DNA from: Tannerella sp.
GTDB taxonomy: Bacteria > Bacteroidota > Bacteroidia > Bacteroidales > Tannerellaceae
Assembly: GCA_031289445.1 (NCBI GenBank)
Contig: JAITPL010000136.1
Span: 1 to 15,542, forward strand
Direction: 5' to 3'
Length of the DNA: 15,542 bases
The position numbers were made by a program, and so were the translations under genes. The notes beneath the pieces are model-generated. The model had not been told where the DNA came from and made no database searches. It saw only the letters and a program-made list of their open reading frames with translations. Below, piece after piece: positions 1,383 through 14,703 of the stretch (the stretch's first letter is position 1; each line of letters starts with the position of its first letter).

Positions 1383-2336
1383 ATGGGAATATTCGGTTTT
1401 TTCAACAGAGAGAAAAAGGAAACTCTGGACAAGGGTTTGTCGAAGACCAAGGCAAGCGTTTTCTCAAAGATTACTCATGCCCTTGTTGGCAAGAGCAAGG
1501 TTGATGACGACGTGCTCGACGAGCTGGAAAATGTGCTTATCTCGTCGGACGTAGGCGTTGAAACGACGCTAAAGATAATCAAACGCATAGAGAAACGCGC
1601 TACTGCCGACAAGTACGTTGGCGCCGACGAACTGACCCGGCTGCTTCGCGAAGAGATTGCCGCGCTGCTGATGGAAAACAACTCGCAGGACGCCGAGAGT
1701 TTTTCCATCTCCGATAGCGTCAGGCCTTATGTGATCATGGTTGTCGGCGTGAACGGCGTTGGCAAGACCACCACTATAGGCAAGATGGCGCATCAGTTTC
1801 AGAAGAACGGCTTCAAGGTCTATCTGGGCGCTGCCGACACGTTCAGGGCTGCGGCTGTCGAGCAGCTGGTTATCTGGGGAGAGCGGGTAGGAGCGCCGGT
1901 CATCAAGCAGAAGATGGGCGCCGACCCTGCATCGGTGGCATTCGACACCCTCAGCTCGGCCAAAGTCAACGGCGCGGACATCGTTATTATCGATACCGCG
2001 GGGCGTTTGCACAACAAGATAAACCTGATGAACGAGCTGACGAAAATAAAAAATGTGATGCGGAAAGTCATACCCGAAGCTCCGCACGAAGTCCTCCTGG
2101 TGCTCGACGGCTCGACAGGTCAGAACGCCTTCGAGCAAGCCAAGCAGTTTACCGCCGCCACAGAGGTTAACGCGCTTGCAATAACCAAGCTGGACGGCAC
2201 GGCAAAGGGCGGCGTGGTGATAGGCATATCCGACCAGTTCCATATTCCGGTGAAATATATCGGTCTGGGCGAGGGTTTGGATGATATTCAGGTATTCAGA
2301 CGCATGGAGTTCGTCAACTCTCTTTTCGGCGAGTAA
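1383..2336 (+). CDS. ftsY: Signal recognition particle receptor FtsY
   Basis: 317-residue SRP GTPase that receives ribosome-nascent chain-SRP complexes at the inner membrane and passes them to SecYEG. Visible GTPase motifs are the P-loop GVNGVGKTTT at 122-131 (Lys128), the QQL-type region ADTFRAAAVEQL, DTAGR at 204-208 and the guanine-specificity motif TKLD at 268-271 followed by GTAKGG. The N domain is short (about residues 1-100) and the long acidic A domain of E. coli FtsY is absent; the N-terminal GIFGFFNREKK stretch could serve as the membrane-contact helix. A TTG start at 1371 is also open, but the ATG at 1383 gives the usual N-terminus. The stop codon abuts the rimO ATG with no spacer, so the two are very likely co-transcribed and translationally coupled. 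Confidence 0.97.
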   Translation: MGIFGFFNREKKETLDKGLSKTKASVFSKITHALVGKSKVDDDVLDELENVLISSDVGVETTLKIIKRIEKRATADKYVGADELTRLLREEIAALLMENNSQDAESFSISDSVRPYVIMVVGVNGVGKTTTIGKMAHQFQKNGFKVYLGAADTFRAAAVEQLVIWGERVGAPVIKQKMGADPASVAFDTLSSAKVNGADIVIIDTAGRLHNKINLMNELTKIKNVMRKVIPEAPHEVLLVLDGSTGQNAFEQAKQFTAATEVNALAITKLDGTAKGGVVIGISDQFHIPVKYIGLGEGLDDIQVFRRMEFVNSLFGE

Positions 2337-3647
2337 ATGAGGAAGAATAAAGTTGACATCATCACTCTGGGCTGCTCCAAGAATCTGGTTGACTCGGAGC
2401 GTCTCATACGCCAGTTCAAGGCCAACGGCTACACGGTCGCACACGACCCCGATAAGGTCAACGGCGAGATAGTCATCGTCAATACCTGCGGATTCATCGA
2501 GGCAGCGCAGGACGAATCGCTGAAGATGATAATCGAACTCGAAGAAGCGAAGCAGCATGGCCGTATAGGGCAGTTATTTGTTATGGGCTGCCTCTCGGAG
2601 CGTTTTATGGAAGAGATGAAGGCCGAGTTGCCGGGTGTGGACAGGTTTTATGGCAAGTTCAACTGGCAGAATATCCTTCGCGACCTCGGCAAGTCGTACT
2701 ATCTGGATTTACCTGACGGCAGAACGCTAACCACACCCGCTCATTATGCGTACATTAAAGTATCGGAAGGGTGCGACCGTCGCTGTTCCTACTGCGCCAT
2801 ACCTGTGATGACGGGCAGACACAAGTCGCGTCCGATGGATGAAATCGTCGCTGAAGCTCGTAGTCTGGCTGTCGGCGGCGTCAAGGAGTTGCAAGTAATA
2901 GCGCAGGATTTGACATATTACGGTAAAGACCTGTACAGTCGCTACGCCTTGCCGGAACTGGTCGAGCGTCTTGCCGACGTGGAGGGTATCGAGTGGATAC
3001 GGCTTCATTACGGCTATCCGGCGCATTTTCCCTACGATTTATTGCGGGTGATACGCGAGCGCAGCAATGTGTGCAACTATCTCGATATAGCTCTGCAACA
3101 TATCAGCGACCCTGTTCTCCGCAAGATGCGCCGGGACATCACTCGCGATGAAACTTACCGCCTGATAGAGCGTATCCGCAACGAAGCGCCGGGGATTCAT
3201 CTGCGCACCACTTTTATTGTCGGTCATCCGGGCGAGACCGACGATGATTTTGCTGCCTTGACGGCTTTTGTCCGCGAGATGCGTTTTGAGCGCATGGGCG
3301 CTTTCATCTACAGCCACGAGTCCGGCACCTACGCCGCAGAGCATTATACTGACGATATCCCTCTTGAAATCAAGCAGCAGCGGCTTGACGAGCTGATGGA
3401 TATACAACAGTCGATAGCCGCCGAAATCAACGCTGCAAGCGTCGGAAAGGTGATGAAAACGATCATCGACCGCCGCGAAGGCGACTACTACGTTGGGCGC
3501 ACCGAGTACGATTCGCCCGAAATAGATCCCGAAGTATTGTTAAAAGCCGATACACAATTGCGTGTAGGGCAGTTTTATGACGTTCTTATCGAGCGTGCGG
3601 ACACCTACGAATTGTACGGAAAAACAAGCCAAAGCAAAAAAAATTGA
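2337..3647 (+). CDS. rimO: Ribosomal protein S12 methylthiotransferase RimO
   Basis: 436-residue radical SAM methylthiotransferase that adds a methylthio group to the conserved aspartate of ribosomal protein S12 (Asp89 in E. coli numbering). The N-terminal UPF0004 domain holds the three cysteines of the auxiliary 4Fe-4S cluster: Cys13 in TLGCSKN, Cys51 in VNTCGFI and Cys85 in MGCLSERF. The radical SAM cluster motif is CDRRCSYC at 146-153 (Cys146, Cys150, Cys153), and the C-terminal 60 or so residues form the TRAM RNA-binding domain. TLGCSKNLVDSE at the N-terminus and the length favour RimO over the tRNA enzyme MiaB. The ATG follows the ftsY TAA directly. About 108 bases separate it from the next start codon, with a promoter inside that gap. 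Confidence 0.96.
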   Translation: MRKNKVDIITLGCSKNLVDSERLIRQFKANGYTVAHDPDKVNGEIVIVNTCGFIEAAQDESLKMIIELEEAKQHGRIGQLFVMGCLSERFMEEMKAELPGVDRFYGKFNWQNILRDLGKSYYLDLPDGRTLTTPAHYAYIKVSEGCDRRCSYCAIPVMTGRHKSRPMDEIVAEARSLAVGGVKELQVIAQDLTYYGKDLYSRYALPELVERLADVEGIEWIRLHYGYPAHFPYDLLRVIRERSNVCNYLDIALQHISDPVLRKMRRDITRDETYRLIERIRNEAPGIHLRTTFIVGHPGETDDDFAALTAFVREMRFERMGAFIYSHESGTYAAEHYTDDIPLEIKQQRLDELMDIQQSIAAEINAASVGKVMKTIIDRREGDYYVGRTEYDSPEIDPEVLLKADTQLRVGQFYDVLIERADTYELYGKTSQSKKN

Positions 3648-3755: not shown

Positions 3756-4043
3756 ATGAAAGATATCGAATTAGTAACCGCTTTATCCGAGCAGATGGAT
3801 ATGTCGCCTCACGACGTTTTGAAGATCCTGTCAGCGCTTTATTCGCTGATAGGAGATTTTGTGTCCTCTAACGGCATGGTTACACTCAACGGGGTAGGGC
3901 AGTTCGAGGCAAAGAAGAATGCCGAGAGAATTACCGCCAACCCGATCAACGGCAAGCGCTACTTGATACCGCCCAAGCTTACACCGGTCTTCAAGCCGGC
4001 TGCTTCATGGAAAACGTACTTGAAAAATTTTGATGAGCAATGA
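3756..4043 (+). CDS. HU/IHF-family DNA-binding protein, single domain
   Basis: 95-residue protein beginning MKDIELVTALSEQMDMSPHD. The N-terminal helical half, in which a two-helix module sets up dimerisation, is followed by the beta region with NGVGQFEAKK, the counterpart of the G-x-G-x-F signature of HU and IHF, then NPINGKRYLIPP in the place of the DNA-contacting arm, and a short C-terminal helix. HU proteins bind and bend DNA as dimers. This copy is close in length to ordinary HU (about 90), but its arm is less basic, so binding may be weaker or specialised. Its stop overlaps the start of the next gene (ATGA at 4040-4043), which itself begins with an HU domain, so the two products may form a heterodimer. 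The start was chosen because the only upstream alternative (TTG 3705) lies within the promoter. Confidence 0.85.
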   Translation: MKDIELVTALSEQMDMSPHDVLKILSALYSLIGDFVSSNGMVTLNGVGQFEAKKNAERITANPINGKRYLIPPKLTPVFKPAASWKTYLKNFDEQ

Positions 4044-6160
4044 TGACTAAACGTATATCAACAAAGCAGTTAGCCGAACTCCTGTCCGACAATACGACCT
4101 TGGACAGGAAGGGCGCGGAGAAGTTTATAGACACCCTTTCTTCGTTTATTATCAAAGGGATAGAGAAGAAGCAGCCTGTGAAGATTCTCGGCTTTGGTAC
4201 GTTCAAAGTTGTCGTCGTCAAGGAGCGTGAGAGCGTTCATATACAGACCGGCGAACGCTTCACCATACCGTCTCACCATAAGCTCTCATTCATCCCCGAT
4301 TCGGTTTTCAAAAATCACATCAACCGTCCCTTCTCCTACTTCGAGCCTATCGAGACAATTGACGAAAACCGCCAAACGGTCAAGGTAATAGATCGGGGCG
4401 AGGTGATAGAAGCCCTGGAAATCACCGACGAAATGTTAGCGAGCGGGCAAGTCGCGATTAGCGAAGATGTGGTTGGTATTGAGGTAATTACCAACGAAGT
4501 CATTACGGAAGAACATGTCGAGACGGTAGCCGTTGGAGGAGAAGCCGAGGTCGAAGCCGAAGAAGTCATCACTGGAGAGCATATCGAAACGCAGGTCGAG
4601 ACAGCAGTCGTTGGGGAGGAAGAAGTCGAAACCGAGGTAGAGGTAGAAGCTGAAGAAGTCATCACTGAAGAGCATATCGAAACGCAGGTCGAGACAGTAG
4701 TCGGTGAGGAAAAGGAAGTCGAAGCCGAGACTGAGGTCGAAGCCGAAGAAGTCATCACTGAAGAAAATATCGAAACGCAGGTCAAAACAGTAGTCGTTGA
4801 AGAGGAAGAAGCCGAAGTTGAAATCGAAGCCGATCCCGATCCCGATTCCGATCCCGATTCCGATGATGCTATTGAAGATGAAGATGAAGAGATTGATGTA
4901 GATGTAGATATAGATGTTGATGAAGAAGAAAGAGATGATGAAGTTGAGAACGATGAAATAGAGGATGAGGTCGAAGAGATCGAAGAGGTCGAAGATGAGG
5001 TTGTTGAAGCCGAAGCCCCAATCGAAGTCGAAGACAAGGTTGTTGAAGCCAAGGCCAAAGCCGGAACCGAAATCAAAGAGTTGATACAGTTGATACGGTT
5101 GAAACAAAAGCCGAAAGCCAAAGCCGGATCCGAAGATGAGGTCAAAATCGAGACCCCAATCGAAGCCAAAGATGAAGTCCATATCCCAATCGAAGCTGAA
5201 TCCAAAGCCAAAATCGAATCCGAAGATGAAGTCCCAATCGAAATCGAATCTGAATCCGAAACCGCAGATGAATCCGCAGCCGCAGATGAATCTGAATCCG
5301 AAGACATTGACAAATTCATAGATAGCTCTGAATCGACCTCTGTTAATCTGCCTGTCGAAAAGCAGATCAAGAAGCCAATACCGACGTGGGTGCAGTTCGT
5401 ACTGTACCCATTACTGTTTGTATTGGCAGTAGGGGTAGGTACTTTTGCTTTCCTGCGCTTCAACGCTGCAAACCAGCAAAGCCAGCAAGGGAAAGATCAA
5501 AGCTACGTTAATACCGACGGACAGAATTACACCGAGCCATTGCCTATAGGCGCTGTGCAGCCTGTTAACGTCAGCCAGAGCGATGAAGGCAGCCCGATAA
5601 ACGGCATCGACGGAAATCAAGCCGCAGGCGCTACCGTCGAGCATGAAGAAACAAGCAGCGACATACAAGCTCCAACGCCTGACGGAAGCACCAATACCGG
5701 AGAAGTCGCTACCAATACGGAAGCATTGGACGAAAAGAAAGAAATCAACTGGTTAGCCGAGCCGTCGCAGTCGTCGCAGAGCAGCCAAACGCGACGTGCC
5801 GACAAGCCAAAAAGTGATACCGAGAGCAAAAATTCATCCCGGACAGACTCCCGCTCATCAACGCCAACCGACCAAAAGCCCGCCGAGTCGCAGCAACAGC
5901 TGAAGTCCCTGCCTGCACGTGTCTCTATGACGCAAGGCTTGACCCTCACTCAGCTCGCACAGGAATATTATGGCGACAAGATTTTCTGGGTCTATATCTA
6001 CGAACACAACAGGAGTCGTATCAAAGACTTTGAAAGAATACAGGTCGGCACTGAGATAATCCTGCCTGAGGCAAAGACTTACGGCATCGACGCCAAGAGC
6101 AAAGCATCCACCGACAAAGCTTTGCTAAGGCAACGCTCGCTGATGCAACAAAAAAACTAA
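4040..6160 (+). CDS. HU-domain / acidic repeat / transmembrane / LysM protein, candidate nucleoid-to-peptidoglycan tether
   Basis: 706 residues in four parts. (1) Residues 1-95 are an HU/IHF domain: KQLAELLSDNTTLDRKGAEK in the helical half, then ILGFGTFKVVVVKERE and a GERFTIPSHHKLSF arm. (2) Residues about 100-440 are strongly acidic, mostly Glu, Val, Asp and Ala, with 31-residue repeats at 153-264, a DPDPDSDPDSDD tract from 265, a DVDVDID tract, then mixed stretches with KAKAG and short basic patches. (3) Residues 450-474 form one hydrophobic span preceded by KQIKKP, which by the positive-inside rule places the N-terminus in the cytoplasm. (4) A Ser/Gln/Asn-rich periplasmic stretch leads to a LysM domain at 628-677 (LAQEYYGDKIFWVYIYEHNR, IQVGTEIILPE). 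LysM binds N-acetylglucosamine chains such as peptidoglycan. The start is coupled to the preceding HU gene by a 4-base overlap (ATG at 4040 or 4043), and murT follows 9 bases after the stop. Domain identity is clear; the tether role is inference. Confidence 0.88.
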   Translation: MMTKRISTKQLAELLSDNTTLDRKGAEKFIDTLSSFIIKGIEKKQPVKILGFGTFKVVVVKERESVHIQTGERFTIPSHHKLSFIPDSVFKNHINRPFSYFEPIETIDENRQTVKVIDRGEVIEALEITDEMLASGQVAISEDVVGIEVITNEVITEEHVETVAVGGEAEVEAEEVITGEHIETQVETAVVGEEEVETEVEVEAEEVITEEHIETQVETVVGEEKEVEAETEVEAEEVITEENIETQVKTVVVEEEEAEVEIEADPDPDSDPDSDDAIEDEDEEIDVDVDIDVDEEERDDEVENDEIEDEVEEIEEVEDEVVEAEAPIEVEDKVVEAKAKAGTEIKELIQLIRLKQKPKAKAGSEDEVKIETPIEAKDEVHIPIEAESKAKIESEDEVPIEIESESETADESAAADESESEDIDKFIDSSESTSVNLPVEKQIKKPIPTWVQFVLYPLLFVLAVGVGTFAFLRFNAANQQSQQGKDQSYVNTDGQNYTEPLPIGAVQPVNVSQSDEGSPINGIDGNQAAGATVEHEETSSDIQAPTPDGSTNTGEVATNTEALDEKKEINWLAEPSQSSQSSQTRRADKPKSDTESKNSSRTDSRSSTPTDQKPAESQQQLKSLPARVSMTQGLTLTQLAQEYYGDKIFWVYIYEHNRSRIKDFERIQVGTEIILPEAKTYGIDAKSKASTDKALLRQRSLMQQKN
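4496..4831 (+). repeat. 93-base in-frame tandem repeats inside the HU-LysM gene
   Basis: Four successive copies begin with Glu-Val-Ile-Thr at 4496, 4562, 4655 and 4748. Copies two and three are each exactly 93 bases (31 residues, EVITxEHIETQVET followed by a Glu/Val tail); the first is shortened to 66 bases and the fourth to 84. Near identity at DNA level, including the run atcgaaacgcaggtc, points to recent tandem duplication and probable length variation between strains. Every length change is a multiple of three, so the reading frame is kept. Confidence 0.9.
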
Positions 6161-6169
6161 AAGACAACT

Positions 6170-7615
6170 ATGAGTCCATACTTCGTTATAACTATTATTT
6201 TAGCCTATTTTGCCGTTTTATACACCGTGTCGTTTTTAGCGGGACGCAACAGCGACAATCAGGGTTTCTTCGTAGGCAACCGCAAATCATCATGGTACGT
6301 AGTCGCTTTTGCAACTATCGGAGCAATGATTTCGGGCGTTACTTTCGTTTCTGTACCCGGAATGGTGGCCGCGAGCGGTCTCTCTTACCTGCAAATGGTC
6401 TTGGGCTTTGCCGTCGGACAGGCCTTGATAGCTTTCGTGCTTATTCCGCTGTTCTACAAAATGAATCTCACCTCTATCTACGAGTACCTCGATAACCGCT
6501 TCGGCATTCTGGCACACAAAACAGGCGCGTGGCTTTTCTTCGTTTCCAAGATGCTGGGCGCTGCAATACGCCTGTTTATTGTCTGTGTAGTTCTTCAACT
6601 GCTTGTCTTCGAGCCGCTGCATCTGCATTTTGTCTTCAACCTGATTTTTACGATGGCTATCTGCTGGCTTTATACCTTCAAGGGGGGCGTCAAATCGCTT
6701 ATTTGGACGGATTCGTTCAAGACTTTTTGCCTTATCGTGTCGGTTGTCCTGTGCATCTATTATATAGCGGTCGATTTGGGTGGCAACATCCTTGCTACCA
6801 TAAGGGAATCGGAGATGACTAAAGTTTTCTTTTTCGAAGATGTGAACGATAAACGCTACTTCTTCAAGCAGTTCCTTGCCGGCGTCTTTACTATGATTGC
6901 CATGAGCGGCTTGGACCAGGATTTGATGCAACGCTCCCTGAGCTGCAAAAATTCCAAAGATTCACAGAAAAACCTGATTACAGGAAGCGTCCTGATGGTC
7001 ATTGTCAACTTGCTTTTCCTGCTGATGGGAGTGCTGCTATATACTTATGCGGCGAAAAACAATATCACCTTGCCGTCAAAACCGGACGAGGTCTTTCCTT
7101 ACCTCGCTACTCAGCGCTTTTTCCCTGTTATCGTCAGCATCCTGTTTATCATAGGACTGATTTCGGCCGCTTACGCAGCAGCAGGCTCGGCGCTTACCGC
7201 TCTCACTACATCGTTTACGGTTGATATCCTCGAGACGCCGAAAAAGAAAAGCGAGGCCGAAACGACTTCAATACGCAAAAAGGTGCACTTAGGCATGGCG
7301 ACGCTTATGGGGGTAGTGATATTTTTTATCAATATCTTCAACAATGCGTCGGTCATAGATACCGTTTACAAACTTGCGAGTTACACCTACGGCCCTCTGT
7401 TGGGCATGTTTGTGTTCGGCATCTTTGTCAAGCGAAAGGTGAAAGACCGCTTCATTCCGTTTGTCGTAATCCTCTCGCCTATCCTCTGTTTTATATTTGA
7501 CGTCAACTCGAAGGCATGGTTTAACGGATACGAGTTCAGCCACGAAAGATTGATTTTGAACGCTCTTTTCACGTTCCTGGGATTCTATATTTTTTCAAAC
7601 AAGACAAACAAATGA
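6170..7615 (+). CDS. murT: Sodium:solute symporter, probable N-acetylmuramic acid transporter MurT
   Basis: 481-residue integral inner-membrane protein of the sodium:solute symporter (SSS) family, with about 12-13 hydrophobic spans starting at residues 4-24. Family features include GRNSDNQGFFVGNRKSSWYV after the first span, GVTFVSVPGM in the second, LDQDLMQRSLSCKN in the middle loop, and GSALTALTTSFTVDIL, whose Ser/Thr residues correspond to the sodium-site helix of PutP and vSGLT. The family alone does not fix the substrate. The MurNAc assignment comes from context: its last four bases overlap the kinase start (ATGA 7612-7615) and murQ follows, the same order as the murTKQ cluster I recall from Tannerella forsythia, where MurT imports MurNAc without phosphorylating it. 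It lies 9 bases downstream of the HU-LysM gene. No promoter is seen in that short gap. Confidence 0.85.
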   Translation: MSPYFVITIILAYFAVLYTVSFLAGRNSDNQGFFVGNRKSSWYVVAFATIGAMISGVTFVSVPGMVAASGLSYLQMVLGFAVGQALIAFVLIPLFYKMNLTSIYEYLDNRFGILAHKTGAWLFFVSKMLGAAIRLFIVCVVLQLLVFEPLHLHFVFNLIFTMAICWLYTFKGGVKSLIWTDSFKTFCLIVSVVLCIYYIAVDLGGNILATIRESEMTKVFFFEDVNDKRYFFKQFLAGVFTMIAMSGLDQDLMQRSLSCKNSKDSQKNLITGSVLMVIVNLLFLLMGVLLYTYAAKNNITLPSKPDEVFPYLATQRFFPVIVSILFIIGLISAAYAAAGSALTALTTSFTVDILETPKKKSEAETTSIRKKVHLGMATLMGVVIFFINIFNNASVIDTVYKLASYTYGPLLGMFVFGIFVKRKVKDRFIPFVVILSPILCFIFDVNSKAWFNGYEFSHERLILNALFTFLGFYIFSNKTNK

Positions 7616-8451
7616 TACTGATAGCTGACAGCGGAACGACCAAGACCGATTGGCGTATGGTAAGCCCCGACCGGCCGCCGACGTCTATTCTTACTAAAGG
7701 GATGAATCCGTATTTCCAGACTGAAGATGAACTTGGTCAGGCGCTTACCGATGAGTTGTTGCCTGTTTTGCCGGATAGCGATATCGAGGCCGTTTATTTT
7801 TATGGGGCCGGATGCGCTTTCGATAAAATAGAGGTGATGCAGCGTGTCATTCGCCGTCATATATCCGCGCCTACCGTCGAAGTCAATACGGACTTGCTGG
7901 CTGCTGCACGCGCTTTGTGCGGACACGGCGCCGGTATAGCCTGCATACTCGGAACAGGCTCAAATTCATGTTTTTACGATGGCGTAAGTATTGTTAAGAA
8001 TGTGTCTCCATTGGGTTATATTCTTGGCGATGAAGGAGGAGGAGCTACTCTCGGACGCCAATTAGTGAGCGACTTGCTGAAAGACATGCTGCCGGCGAGC
8101 CTGAAAGAATCGTTTCTCACGCGCTACGACCTGACAGTGCCGCAAATCATTGACCGCGTCTATCGCCAACCCTTCCCCAACCGTTTTCTGGCGAGCTTCA
8201 CTCCTTTTATTGCCGAACATATTCAGGAGCCGGAGGTCTATACATTGGTATTCAACGGTTTTACGGCCTTTCTTTGTCGCAATGTGATGAAATATGATTG
8301 CCAACGCTATCCGGTCTCGTTTGTCGGCTCGATAGCCTTCTACTTTCGCGAAGTCCTGACGGCCGCAGCCGAAGCGACCGGTATCCGTATCGGTACCATC
8401 CTCCAAAGCCCCGGCGATGGACTTGTAGAATATTATAGTAAAGAATTATGA
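7612..8451 (+). CDS. murK: BadF/BadG-type ATPase, probable N-acetylmuramic acid kinase MurK
   Basis: 279-residue sugar kinase of the ASKHA fold, N-acetylglucosamine-kinase-like. The N-terminal phosphate loop is IADSGTTKTDWR (residues 3-14); the central GTGSNSCFYDG and the adjacent LGYILGDEGGGATLGRQL are the adenosine and sugar-site motifs of GlcNAc and MurNAc kinases of Bacteroidota. The likely reaction is MurNAc + ATP to MurNAc-6-phosphate in the cytoplasm, supplying MurQ; activity on GlcNAc as well is plausible. The start overlaps the murT stop by four bases, so translation is coupled. The C-terminus ends KEL with the stop TGA falling inside the first units of the 7-base repeat array that fills the gap to murQ, so the last codons themselves belong to the repeat. 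Confidence 0.85.
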   Translation: MILIADSGTTKTDWRMVSPDRPPTSILTKGMNPYFQTEDELGQALTDELLPVLPDSDIEAVYFYGAGCAFDKIEVMQRVIRRHISAPTVEVNTDLLAAARALCGHGAGIACILGTGSNSCFYDGVSIVKNVSPLGYILGDEGGGATLGRQLVSDLLKDMLPASLKESFLTRYDLTVPQIIDRVYRQPFPNRFLASFTPFIAEHIQEPEVYTLVFNGFTAFLCRNVMKYDCQRYPVSFVGSIAFYFREVLTAAAEATGIRIGTILQSPGDGLVEYYSKEL

Positions 8452-8701: not shown

Positions 8702-8809
8702 TCTTGTTTATGTGAATTTTGAAAATTTTGTTAATTCTGTAAAAATTTATAACTTCTAATTTTTCATTTCTTTTGCCTTTTAATTCTTAATTTTTAATTG
8801 ATTGAATTT

Positions 8810-9670
8810 ATGTTTTTTGAAAAAATATCGGAAAAAGCGTCGTTGTACAACGATTTGGAAACGAAATCGGTACGCGAGTTGCTCGAAGAAATAAATGCCG
8901 AAGACCATAAACCGGCTTTGGCTGTACAAGCGGCTATCCCGCAGATCGAACGGTTAGTGCTTGCCATCGTGCCACGAATGCGGAACGGTGGACGCATCTT
9001 TTATCTGGGCGCAGGTACAAGCGGACGCCTCGGAGTGCTTGATGCTTCTGAGGTGCCACCTACGTTTGGCGCTCCACCAACATGGGTTATCGGACTGATT
9101 GCCGGTGGAGACAAAGCGCTACGCTCACCTGTCGAAAACGCTGAAGATAACCTTCAAAGCGCCTGGCAGGAATTGGTAGAATATCATATCAACCGGAACG
9201 TTACGGTTATCGGCATTGCTGCTTCCGGCACAACTCCTTACGTCATCGGCGCACTGCGTGACGCCCGGCAGCACGGCATACTGACAGCCTGCATAACGAG
9301 CAATCCCGATTCGCCACTATCCGCCGAAGCCGATATCCCTATTGAAGTCATCGTAGGGCCTGAGTACCTGACCGGCAGCTCGCGAATGAAATCGGGAACA
9401 GCGCAAAAGATGGCGCTTAACATGATTTCAACTTCTGTGATGATACAACTCGGACGTGTCAAAGGCAACAAGATGGTGAACATGCAACTTAGCAACGCTA
9501 AACTTATCGACCGTGGCACACGTATGATAGTCGATGAGCTTGGCGTGGACTATGAGCGTGCTAAAGACTTGCTGTTGTTGCACGGCTCTGTGAAAGCAGC
9601 GTTGGATGCCGACAAAGATGCAAGTAAAGATTCAAGCAAGGATGCCAACACAAGCGCGTCCTCACAGTAA
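8810..9670 (+). CDS. murQ: N-acetylmuramic acid 6-phosphate etherase MurQ
   Basis: 286-residue SIS-domain lyase that removes the D-lactyl ether from MurNAc-6-phosphate to give GlcNAc-6-phosphate and D-lactate, joining wall salvage to amino-sugar metabolism. Motifs are LGAGTSGRLGVLDASEVPPT (catalytic Glu81, Glu83 in E. coli), VENAEDN (Glu112, matching E. coli Glu114), GIAASGTTPYVIGAL and TGSSRMKSGTAQK. The ATG at 8810 gives the usual N-terminus; a TTG at 8798 lies within repeat-derived sequence and is unlikely. After LLLLHGSVKAAL the protein ends in a low-complexity tail with Lys-Asp-Ala-Ser repeats, unlike the E. coli end. It is separated from murK by about 360 bases of heptamer repeats. Its stop lies only 6 bases from the stop of the convergent trxA. 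Confidence 0.95.
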   Translation: MFFEKISEKASLYNDLETKSVRELLEEINAEDHKPALAVQAAIPQIERLVLAIVPRMRNGGRIFYLGAGTSGRLGVLDASEVPPTFGAPPTWVIGLIAGGDKALRSPVENAEDNLQSAWQELVEYHINRNVTVIGIAASGTTPYVIGALRDARQHGILTACITSNPDSPLSAEADIPIEVIVGPEYLTGSSRMKSGTAQKMALNMISTSVMIQLGRVKGNKMVNMQLSNAKLIDRGTRMIVDELGVDYERAKDLLLLHGSVKAALDADKDASKDSSKDANTSASSQ

Positions 9671-13990: not shown

Positions 13991-14013
13991 TGCTTTCATA
14001 TAATGTAATTATT

Positions 14014-14703
14014 ATGGCAACAAAACTGAAATTATTGTACGTAATGGCTGTTGTAGCCTGCTTGACGGCAACGACGGCAAAGGCTCAGGAATGGAGTAAG
14101 GAAGATTCGATCTGGTTGCTCAACGTCATCGAAGGGCGTCGGGAACTGCGTATCAACGAGGAGACGAAGAAGGCTATCGAAGATGGTCGTCTGATCTTGC
14201 CGTCGTGGATAAAGGAGGGCGACAAGATCGAACTGCTGAAGGGTTTCAGCAACGCGGGCGCTATCGATTCGGCGAACATCAGCAGCATTGACCCCTACAC
14301 CATGCCGCCCGCCGTCTTCGCGATGTACGTTCTGTACATGGACAAGATGGACTCGATAAGCGAGAGTCGGACCATCATGCTTTCCAAGTCGGAAAAGGAA
14401 AAGCTCATGGAGCAGTTGCCGCCCGGCAGTCGCGGCTTCGATGTGAACGGTGCAACAGGGGGCGGGGTGAGAGGAGGCCTTGACTTCAATCATCTACTGA
14501 GCATGGTGTTCAGCCCTTCCTATCGCAACAAGTATCATAACAGCAAGCACGCGACAAGTTACAAGAACTATTACGACGAAGGCAATGTTTCCTCAATCAC
14601 AATGACCGAAGGCGAACGCCGACAATTGCGTCAGGCTCTACAACAAGCCGCCAAAAAGACCGACAAAGAACCCGGCCGGAAACTACACGGCATAGACGAC
14701 TGA
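14014..14703 (+). CDS. Secreted protein of unknown function
   Basis: 229 residues with a clear N-terminal signal peptide: basic MATKLKLL, hydrophobic YVMAVVACLTATT, and a likely signal peptidase I site after AKA before QEWSKED. No cysteine sits at the cleavage site, so it is a periplasmic or secreted soluble protein rather than a lipoprotein. The mature part is charged, with a region around RRELRINEETKKAIEDGRLILP, a Pro/Ala segment (DPYTMPPAVFAMYVLYMDKM), a Gly-rich patch (NGATGGGVRGG), a basic/Asn stretch and a C-terminal acidic-basic helix (TEGERRQLRQALQQAAKK). I do not recognise a catalytic motif; it may belong to one of the uncharacterised Bacteroidales DUF families of this size. It diverges from dnaE. 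Its stop codon is immediately followed by a heptamer array. Confidence 0.8.
   Translation: MATKLKLLYVMAVVACLTATTAKAQEWSKEDSIWLLNVIEGRRELRINEETKKAIEDGRLILPSWIKEGDKIELLKGFSNAGAIDSANISSIDPYTMPPAVFAMYVLYMDKMDSISESRTIMLSKSEKEKLMEQLPPGSRGFDVNGATGGGVRGGLDFNHLLSMVFSPSYRNKYHNSKHATSYKNYYDEGNVSSITMTEGERRQLRQALQQAAKKTDKEPGRKLHGIDD

Follow-up and report, generated by a model that had tools for sequence, protein, structure and literature searches.

A conserved pair of HU-type genes in Bacteroidales as a candidate chromosome-to-wall tether

Known links between the bacterial chromosome and the cell envelope are mostly site-specific, as with ParB/HubP, RacA and Noc. In HubP and FimV the LysM domain lies on the N-terminal side, and SPOR domains bind denuded septal glycan. 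HU-TM-SPOR proteins (TM, transmembrane) of Bacteroidota, with the Pfam domains HU-CCDC81_bac_1 and HU-CCDC81_bac_2, were reportedly described by Burroughs et al. in 2017. In P. putida, the LysM of FimV mediates nonspecific binding to peptidoglycan (PMC12918733). Here we analyze a 15,542-nucleotide stretch of DNA (contig JAITPL010000136.1, the window) from Tannerella sp., a gut-type bacterium whose genome assembly is 1.68 Mb and 61% complete. An earlier note, made from the letters of the window, had pointed to a gene at 4040..6160 whose product appeared to join an HU domain, across the membrane, to a LysM domain. We find that this HU-TM-LysM gene forms a conserved unit with a second HU gene, HU1, and that the two are sometimes fused. 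The domains, their order and the pairing raise a prospect that we hold to be about evenly balanced: a chromosome-to-wall tether, in which a membrane-crossing strap would fasten an HU heterodimer to the wall.

The HU-TM-LysM open reading frame (ORF; strand +, as for all named window genes below) encodes 706 amino acids (aa). Its HU domain (residues 8-95, 4061..4324, arm KVVVVKERESVHIQTGERFTIPSHHKLS) matches PF00216 with E 2e-18 and 66.9 bits, against a cut-off of 22.4. The AlphaFold prediction for residues 1-110 is of moderate quality (predicted local distance difference test, pLDDT, 71; predicted template modeling score, pTM, 0.44), yet its helices and strands follow the order of HU, and its best PDB matches in Foldseek are IHF and HU chains (E 1.3e-7, TM-score ~0.47). 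By these measures, the domain has an HU fold. Next come an acidic linker (residues 106-453, 4355..5398), a single membrane span (residues 454-472, 5399..5455), a linker placed in the periplasm by the predicted topology (5456..5923), a LysM domain (residues 629-678, 5924..6073) and a C-terminal tail (6074..6157) with a predicted helix past the LysM (model residues 74-91). The domain order proposed earlier is thus borne out by PF00216, hydropathy, a LysM profile and the models. The linker, described as about 350 acidic residues, is indeed an acidic stretch of 348 residues, but only 37% of these are D/E (7% are K/R). A repeat scan finds in it a 93-bp in-frame tandem repeat of 2.9 copies (4547..4817). 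Two long minus-strand ORFs (4336-5463 and 4436-5182) face the acidic repeats; we considered them as genes and set them aside, as they are probably by-products of repetitive acidic coding sequence and codon composition.

This layout is not a feature of one genome. We compared 38 HU-TM-LysM proteins: the window's own, 11 from Tannerella-like loci and 26 from loci across the order. A simple hydropathy scan found exactly one span in each. The 60 homologues found via the HU region also show one span apiece; one of them (P0030) stops before the LysM. In the window's protein, 454-472 is the only hydrophobic stretch. It is preceded by KQIKK, with three K/R in the 15 residues before it and two after, and K/R before the span outnumber those after it in 31 of the 38 (two ties, five reversed). 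The earlier proposal of a single span with positive residues on its N-terminal side therefore holds for the window and for most of the family. The linker before the span ranges from 52 to 363 residues. These data indicate that the layout exceeds chance, since it recurs among homologues and across the order.

Directly upstream lies HU1 (3756..4043; ORF listed from 3753), a single-domain HU protein of 95 aa (PF00216 E 1.5e-17, 64.1 bits). Its TGA stop (4041-4043) overlaps the ATG of the HU-TM-LysM gene (ATGA), and the two genes share four nucleotides. HU1 adjoins the HU-TM-LysM gene in all 11 Tannerella-like loci (L007-L017, titled Tannerella sp.; start codon not fixable in L015 and L017), and it is directly upstream in 26/26 strong order-wide loci other than the window. 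With starts chosen by script, the two genes overlap by 4, 8 or 11 nucleotides in 24 of these 26 and are 11 or 14 nucleotides apart in the other two. A twelfth Tannerella-like locus, L018, had entered by its LysM alone; it encodes an OmpA-type protein and is excluded from the pair counts. The earlier note had missed HU1 and had read the link as one self-sufficient polypeptide. We reject that form of the proposal, because HU1 adjoins in all 26 strong and 11 Tannerella-like loci or is fused in four genomes, while a link from chromosome to wall is still the best reading. What is conserved is the two HU genes together, which in some genomes are a single fused gene. Overlap, co-occurrence and fusions give the pairing good support, and we are confident that the two HU proteins function as partners.

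To place the system in the order, we searched 198 Bacteroidales genomes (E<=1e-14) with a profile built on eight HU domains, whose sources were the window and a protein search. It matched 29 genomes, 28 of them with frames of 313-726 aa. The remaining match, in G178 (L100), had passed this first threshold as a possible pair member and turned out to be an ordinary short HU. Leaving out the window, we examined 28 loci: the 26 strong ones, G178, and G157, which likewise carries an HU1 and HU-TM-LysM pair. Family profiles drew a sharper line. The HU1 profile matched 27/198 genomes at E<=6.6e-27, with the next match at 1.1e-19; the anchored-HU profile matched the same 27 at E<=9.4e-36, followed by G157 at 1.1e-22 and then 1.1e-16. 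This gap is partly built in, because the family profiles include rows from those genomes; the eight-domain search is more independent, its rows not having been picked from the 198. The 27 strong genomes span 14 family labels, with one strong anchored-HU match per genome. In a class-wide draw of 296 genomes, at a threshold that would miss diverged or fused forms, nine gave strong matches (E<=1.5e-37), and all nine belong to the order or family of the window. The other matches listed come mostly from different orders and are short frames (91-200 aa).

The system is not confined to these 27 genomes, as a long HU frame in G053 and a search with the LysM profile brought to light fused genes and diverged pairs that the HU threshold had missed. 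The G053 frame, 754 aa long and flanked by rimO and moxR (genes read by eye), opens with a pair of HU domains. For the first, the HU1 profile gives 40.7 bits and the anchored profile 14.7; for the second, the anchored profile gives 44.4 and the HU1 profile 8.1. The higher score of each domain exceeds all of 1000 shuffles. The LysM profile matched 45/198 genomes at E<=1e-8. Ten further places to which it led comprised three fusions, four diverged pairs (G098, G187, G152 and G048), two OmpA-type proteins and one unclear second copy in G196. The fusions have the same order as G053, which is clear in G156, modest in G106 and weak in G192. In all four genomes, an HU1-type domain comes first and an anchored-type HU second, followed by the TM-LysM part. 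The four fall under two family labels, two genomes each. HU1-like matches in G098, G187 and G048 (1e-17 to 1e-18), which we had taken for background, turned out to be true partners. Thus, counting 27 strong genomes, G157, four diverged and four fused, some form of the system is present in at least 36/198 genomes. The extra protein of G196 (L203 1139-3037), encoded besides its normal pair, is 633 aa long and combines weak HU-like stretches and a charged repeat rich in E/K with a span and the same LysM.

The two HU types are distinct families. In a tree of 102 HU domains, HU1 (39 rows) forms one group (99/99) and the anchored HU (39 rows) another (98/96), both separate from 24 ordinary HUs; with a short alignment, some long branches and bootstrap values not settled, many forks are open. 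Their arms also differ. We compared 39 main pairs, 12 of them from the window's genus, with residues numbered on a sequence taken as E. coli HU-alpha. A proline at position 63 of E. coli HU inserts into DNA. HU1 has P63 in 38/39, R58 in 38/39 and K86 in 39/39. The anchored HU keeps R58 in 36/39, while its position 63 is V/I in 32/39, A in 3, E in 1 and P in 3; in the window it is I, and in HU1 P. Since the anchored arm is non-canonical, HU1 is the likelier DNA-contacting half. The eight members that are diverged or fused all have an HU1-type arm of 27-28 residues, and the lopsided loss of the other arm described below would suit a heterodimer that depends on just one of its arms. On the indirect evidence of overlap and fusions, the two HU domains very probably act as one IHF-like heterodimer, and the pair likely binds DNA in the window's organism.

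The C-terminal domain of the window's protein is a LysM domain by family profile and by predicted fold, although a Pfam scan gave no LysM match (PF01476) at E<=1 in this protein. PF01476 is reached at E<=0.05 by 8 of the 35 aligned family members. The family profile of the domain matches the LysM of Kbp (3.6e-9) and Ecp6 (8.1e-9). The earlier note had suggested structure prediction for both ends of the protein, and the resulting models are HU-like, as given above, and LysM-like. The latter (pLDDT 82) has the beta-alpha-alpha-beta order of LysM, and its top Foldseek matches are LysM-bearing chains, the best at E 2.5e-3 and none at E<=0.001. LysM-like ends occur in 38/38 proteins, 35 by motif and three by eye. 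The LysM profile, which contains rows from most of the 27 strong genomes, matches the long frame in every one of them. One locus, L099, seemed LysM-free from its tail alone; its full sequence has a LysM-like stretch with a profile match of 3.6e-12. When 41 relatives were searched with the C-terminal part, 24 matched: 21/25 of the genus, its own genome included, and 3/16 others of the order. The four genus genomes that lacked a match are incomplete. Short-frame matches to the LysM profile (115-303 aa, E 2e-13 to 9e-9) are also present in the 198 genomes. In addition, OmpA-type outer membrane proteins, named by eye, close with the same LysM subtype (L018 4504-6223; L201 2031-3746 and L202 2250-3923, both in reverse-strand numbering), so the subtype occurs on both inner-membrane and outer-membrane anchors. 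This distribution, together with the analogy to FimV (PMC12918733), makes it likely that the LysM of the HU-TM-LysM protein binds the wall.

Of the described systems, HU-TM-SPOR is a close relative in plan, and its recall in the earlier note was sound. One ORF in the window's genome (L158) matches HU-CCDC81_bac_1 (9e-25), HU-CCDC81_bac_2 (8.1e-11) and SPOR (1.5e-6), with a hydrophobic stretch, seen by eye, between its HU and SPOR parts. Both systems appear to combine an HU part, one span and a C-terminus of wall-binding type, both have two HU domains per anchored unit, and both occur in the window's genome. They differ in that the SPOR protein carries its HU domains in tandem in one chain, under other Pfam models, and ends in SPOR, whereas the LysM unit has LysM and, unless fused, two chains. 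PF18174, PF18175 and SPOR gave no match at E<=1 in the window's HU-TM-LysM protein. Their spread differs too: of 34 genomes chosen by hand, 33 match PF18175 at E<=0.001 and 28 exceed its curated cut-off (SPOR itself was checked in two proteins), versus the LysM unit in 36 of 198 drawn. HubP/FimV proteins (PMC12918733) share a periplasmic LysM, one membrane region and a long acidic cytoplasmic part. They differ in reversed domain order, a C-terminal TPR/FimV domain and the lack of an HU domain; no TPR/FimV C-terminal domain is among the Pfam families found at E<=1 in the window's protein.

IHF alpha/beta and E. coli HU alpha/beta resemble the pair in having two diverged HU subunits, and our profiles match IHF and HU chains, but those proteins are soluble. 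To our knowledge, their subunit genes neither overlap nor are fused in nature; scIHF2, among the profile matches, is an engineered fusion. Ordinary Bacteroidota HUs have PF00216 in common with the pair and differ in being short, without LysM and separate in the tree. In the literature we searched, which took in few subscription journals, we found no description of an HU-LysM protein or family, though Burroughs et al. 2017 may mention one.

We suggest that HU1 and the HU-TM-LysM protein would be coproduced and would assemble into a heterodimer of HU/IHF type, in which the arm of HU1 is the more canonical one for DNA contact. Its partner would be anchored, the acidic linker extending to the inner membrane and the chain crossing once, so that the C-terminal LysM may sit on peptidoglycan. 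The outcome would be a flexible strap between nucleoid and wall, positioning or restraining chromosomal DNA near the growing envelope. Several observations weigh against this proposal. The anchored HU lacks the arm proline in 36/39 main pairs, and in 6/8 diverged or fused members its arm is shortened to 11-17 residues. Of the HU1 domains in those eight, only L162, L196, L199 and L200 keep the tip proline (by eye), and the net charge of the HU1 arm is 0 in L197 (the G152 pair) and -3 in L198 (the G048 pair). The charge rule for the span fails or ties in 7/38 proteins. Finally, the top structural matches of the LysM model, none at E<=0.001, are Kbp and LysM domains of phage and injection-system baseplates, and LysM folds are not wall binders in every case.

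The gene neighborhood bears on the alternatives. Upstream of the pair in the window are ftsY (1383..2336; SRP54 PF00448 1.5e-74) and a rimO-like radical SAM/TRAM gene (2337..3647, by Pfam); both are upstream in 8/26 order-wide loci. Downstream are a sodium:solute symporter, MurT-like by position (6170..7615; PF00474 2e-29), a putative sugar kinase, MurK-like by position (7612..8451; weak NagK match of 1.6e-5, under the cut-off), and murQ, encoding N-acetylmuramic acid 6-phosphate etherase (8798..9670, listed from 8801; NF003915 5.8e-109). This order is that of the T. forsythia murTKQ operon (transporter, kinase, etherase), as given in PMC5790795. In the loci that we searched for mur genes, just two have them next to the pair: the window and L007 (5558-7635), where murT- and murK-like genes follow the pair and the contig ends. 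The more usual followers are moxR- and DUF58-like genes, downstream in 18/26 order-wide loci; L008 has a MoxR-type AAA gene, DUF58, a DUF4381-like gene and two BatA/VWA genes by Pfam. The moxR cluster is also downstream in 5/11 Tannerella-like loci, some of the others being short contigs, and moxR is found by tblastn in 4/7 diverged or fused loci (L162 was read by eye). The common slot of the pair is thus before moxR-DUF58-batA, often after ftsY-rimO. In L080 (5635-7071), mscL and an MscS-type mechanosensitive channel gene immediately follow the pair. Elsewhere in the window, a 234-aa ORF (13999-14703) has a secreted-like start and no Pfam match at E<=1.

Could the wall-anchored pair be a scaffold, its HU dimer having proteins instead of DNA as ligands, that organizes an envelope machine such as the MoxR-Bat proteins next door? 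The recurrent moxR slot would suit this, as would the erosion of DNA-contact features in several lineages, HU1 included, while pair, span and LysM persist. A protein-binding role has also been proposed for the HU-type domains of CCDC81. Pure protein binding would, however, need none of the proline, R58 and K86 that HU1 keeps almost invariably in the main pairs, and moxR in the window's own genome is on another contig (91% identity to L008). We judge a scaffold unlikely, while still worth keeping in view.

Less probable again is a wall sensor, in which the LysM would respond to wall fragments or to the state of the wall, with the HU pair then altering local DNA architecture or transcription, like membrane-bound regulators of the ToxR kind. 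HU and IHF proteins are known to bend DNA at promoters, and the muramic acid recycling genes that come next in the window point the same way. Yet among the loci searched those genes adjoin the pair so rarely, and the moxR cluster so widely (it holds that place in five other Tannerella-like loci), that the murTKQ link looks local and the bat link the common one; we rejected a functional link to murTKQ as the leading explanation on this ground. The pre-span linkers, so variable in length, are also unlike a signal-passing stalk. Least probable by far, to the point of being hard to credit, is an extra HU protein that chanced on a membrane anchor and has no dedicated role. HU genes are numerous, with four matches even in the incomplete genome of the window, but the conservation contradicts such an origin: one strong match per genome, with partner and layout kept across 14 family labels.

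The HU-SPOR ORF in the window's genome means that this cell has one HU pair on a SPOR anchor and another on a LysM anchor. We therefore raise, as a tentative idea with the balance somewhat against it, that many Bacteroidales build two parallel chromosome-wall straps, each with two HU domains on a single membrane anchor. The tandem-HU SPOR protein would serve septal glycan, and the HU1/HU-TM-LysM heterodimer, encoded by overlapping genes or by one fused gene, would serve the wall in general. Whether the bulk bacterial chromosome has a dedicated physical link to the envelope is a long-standing question, and a conserved unit of only two genes, which nature also provides as one, opens it to testing in a culturable Bacteroidales species. 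If true, two parallel straps would hold nucleoids relative to both sidewall and septum, a segregation aid built from nucleoid proteins.

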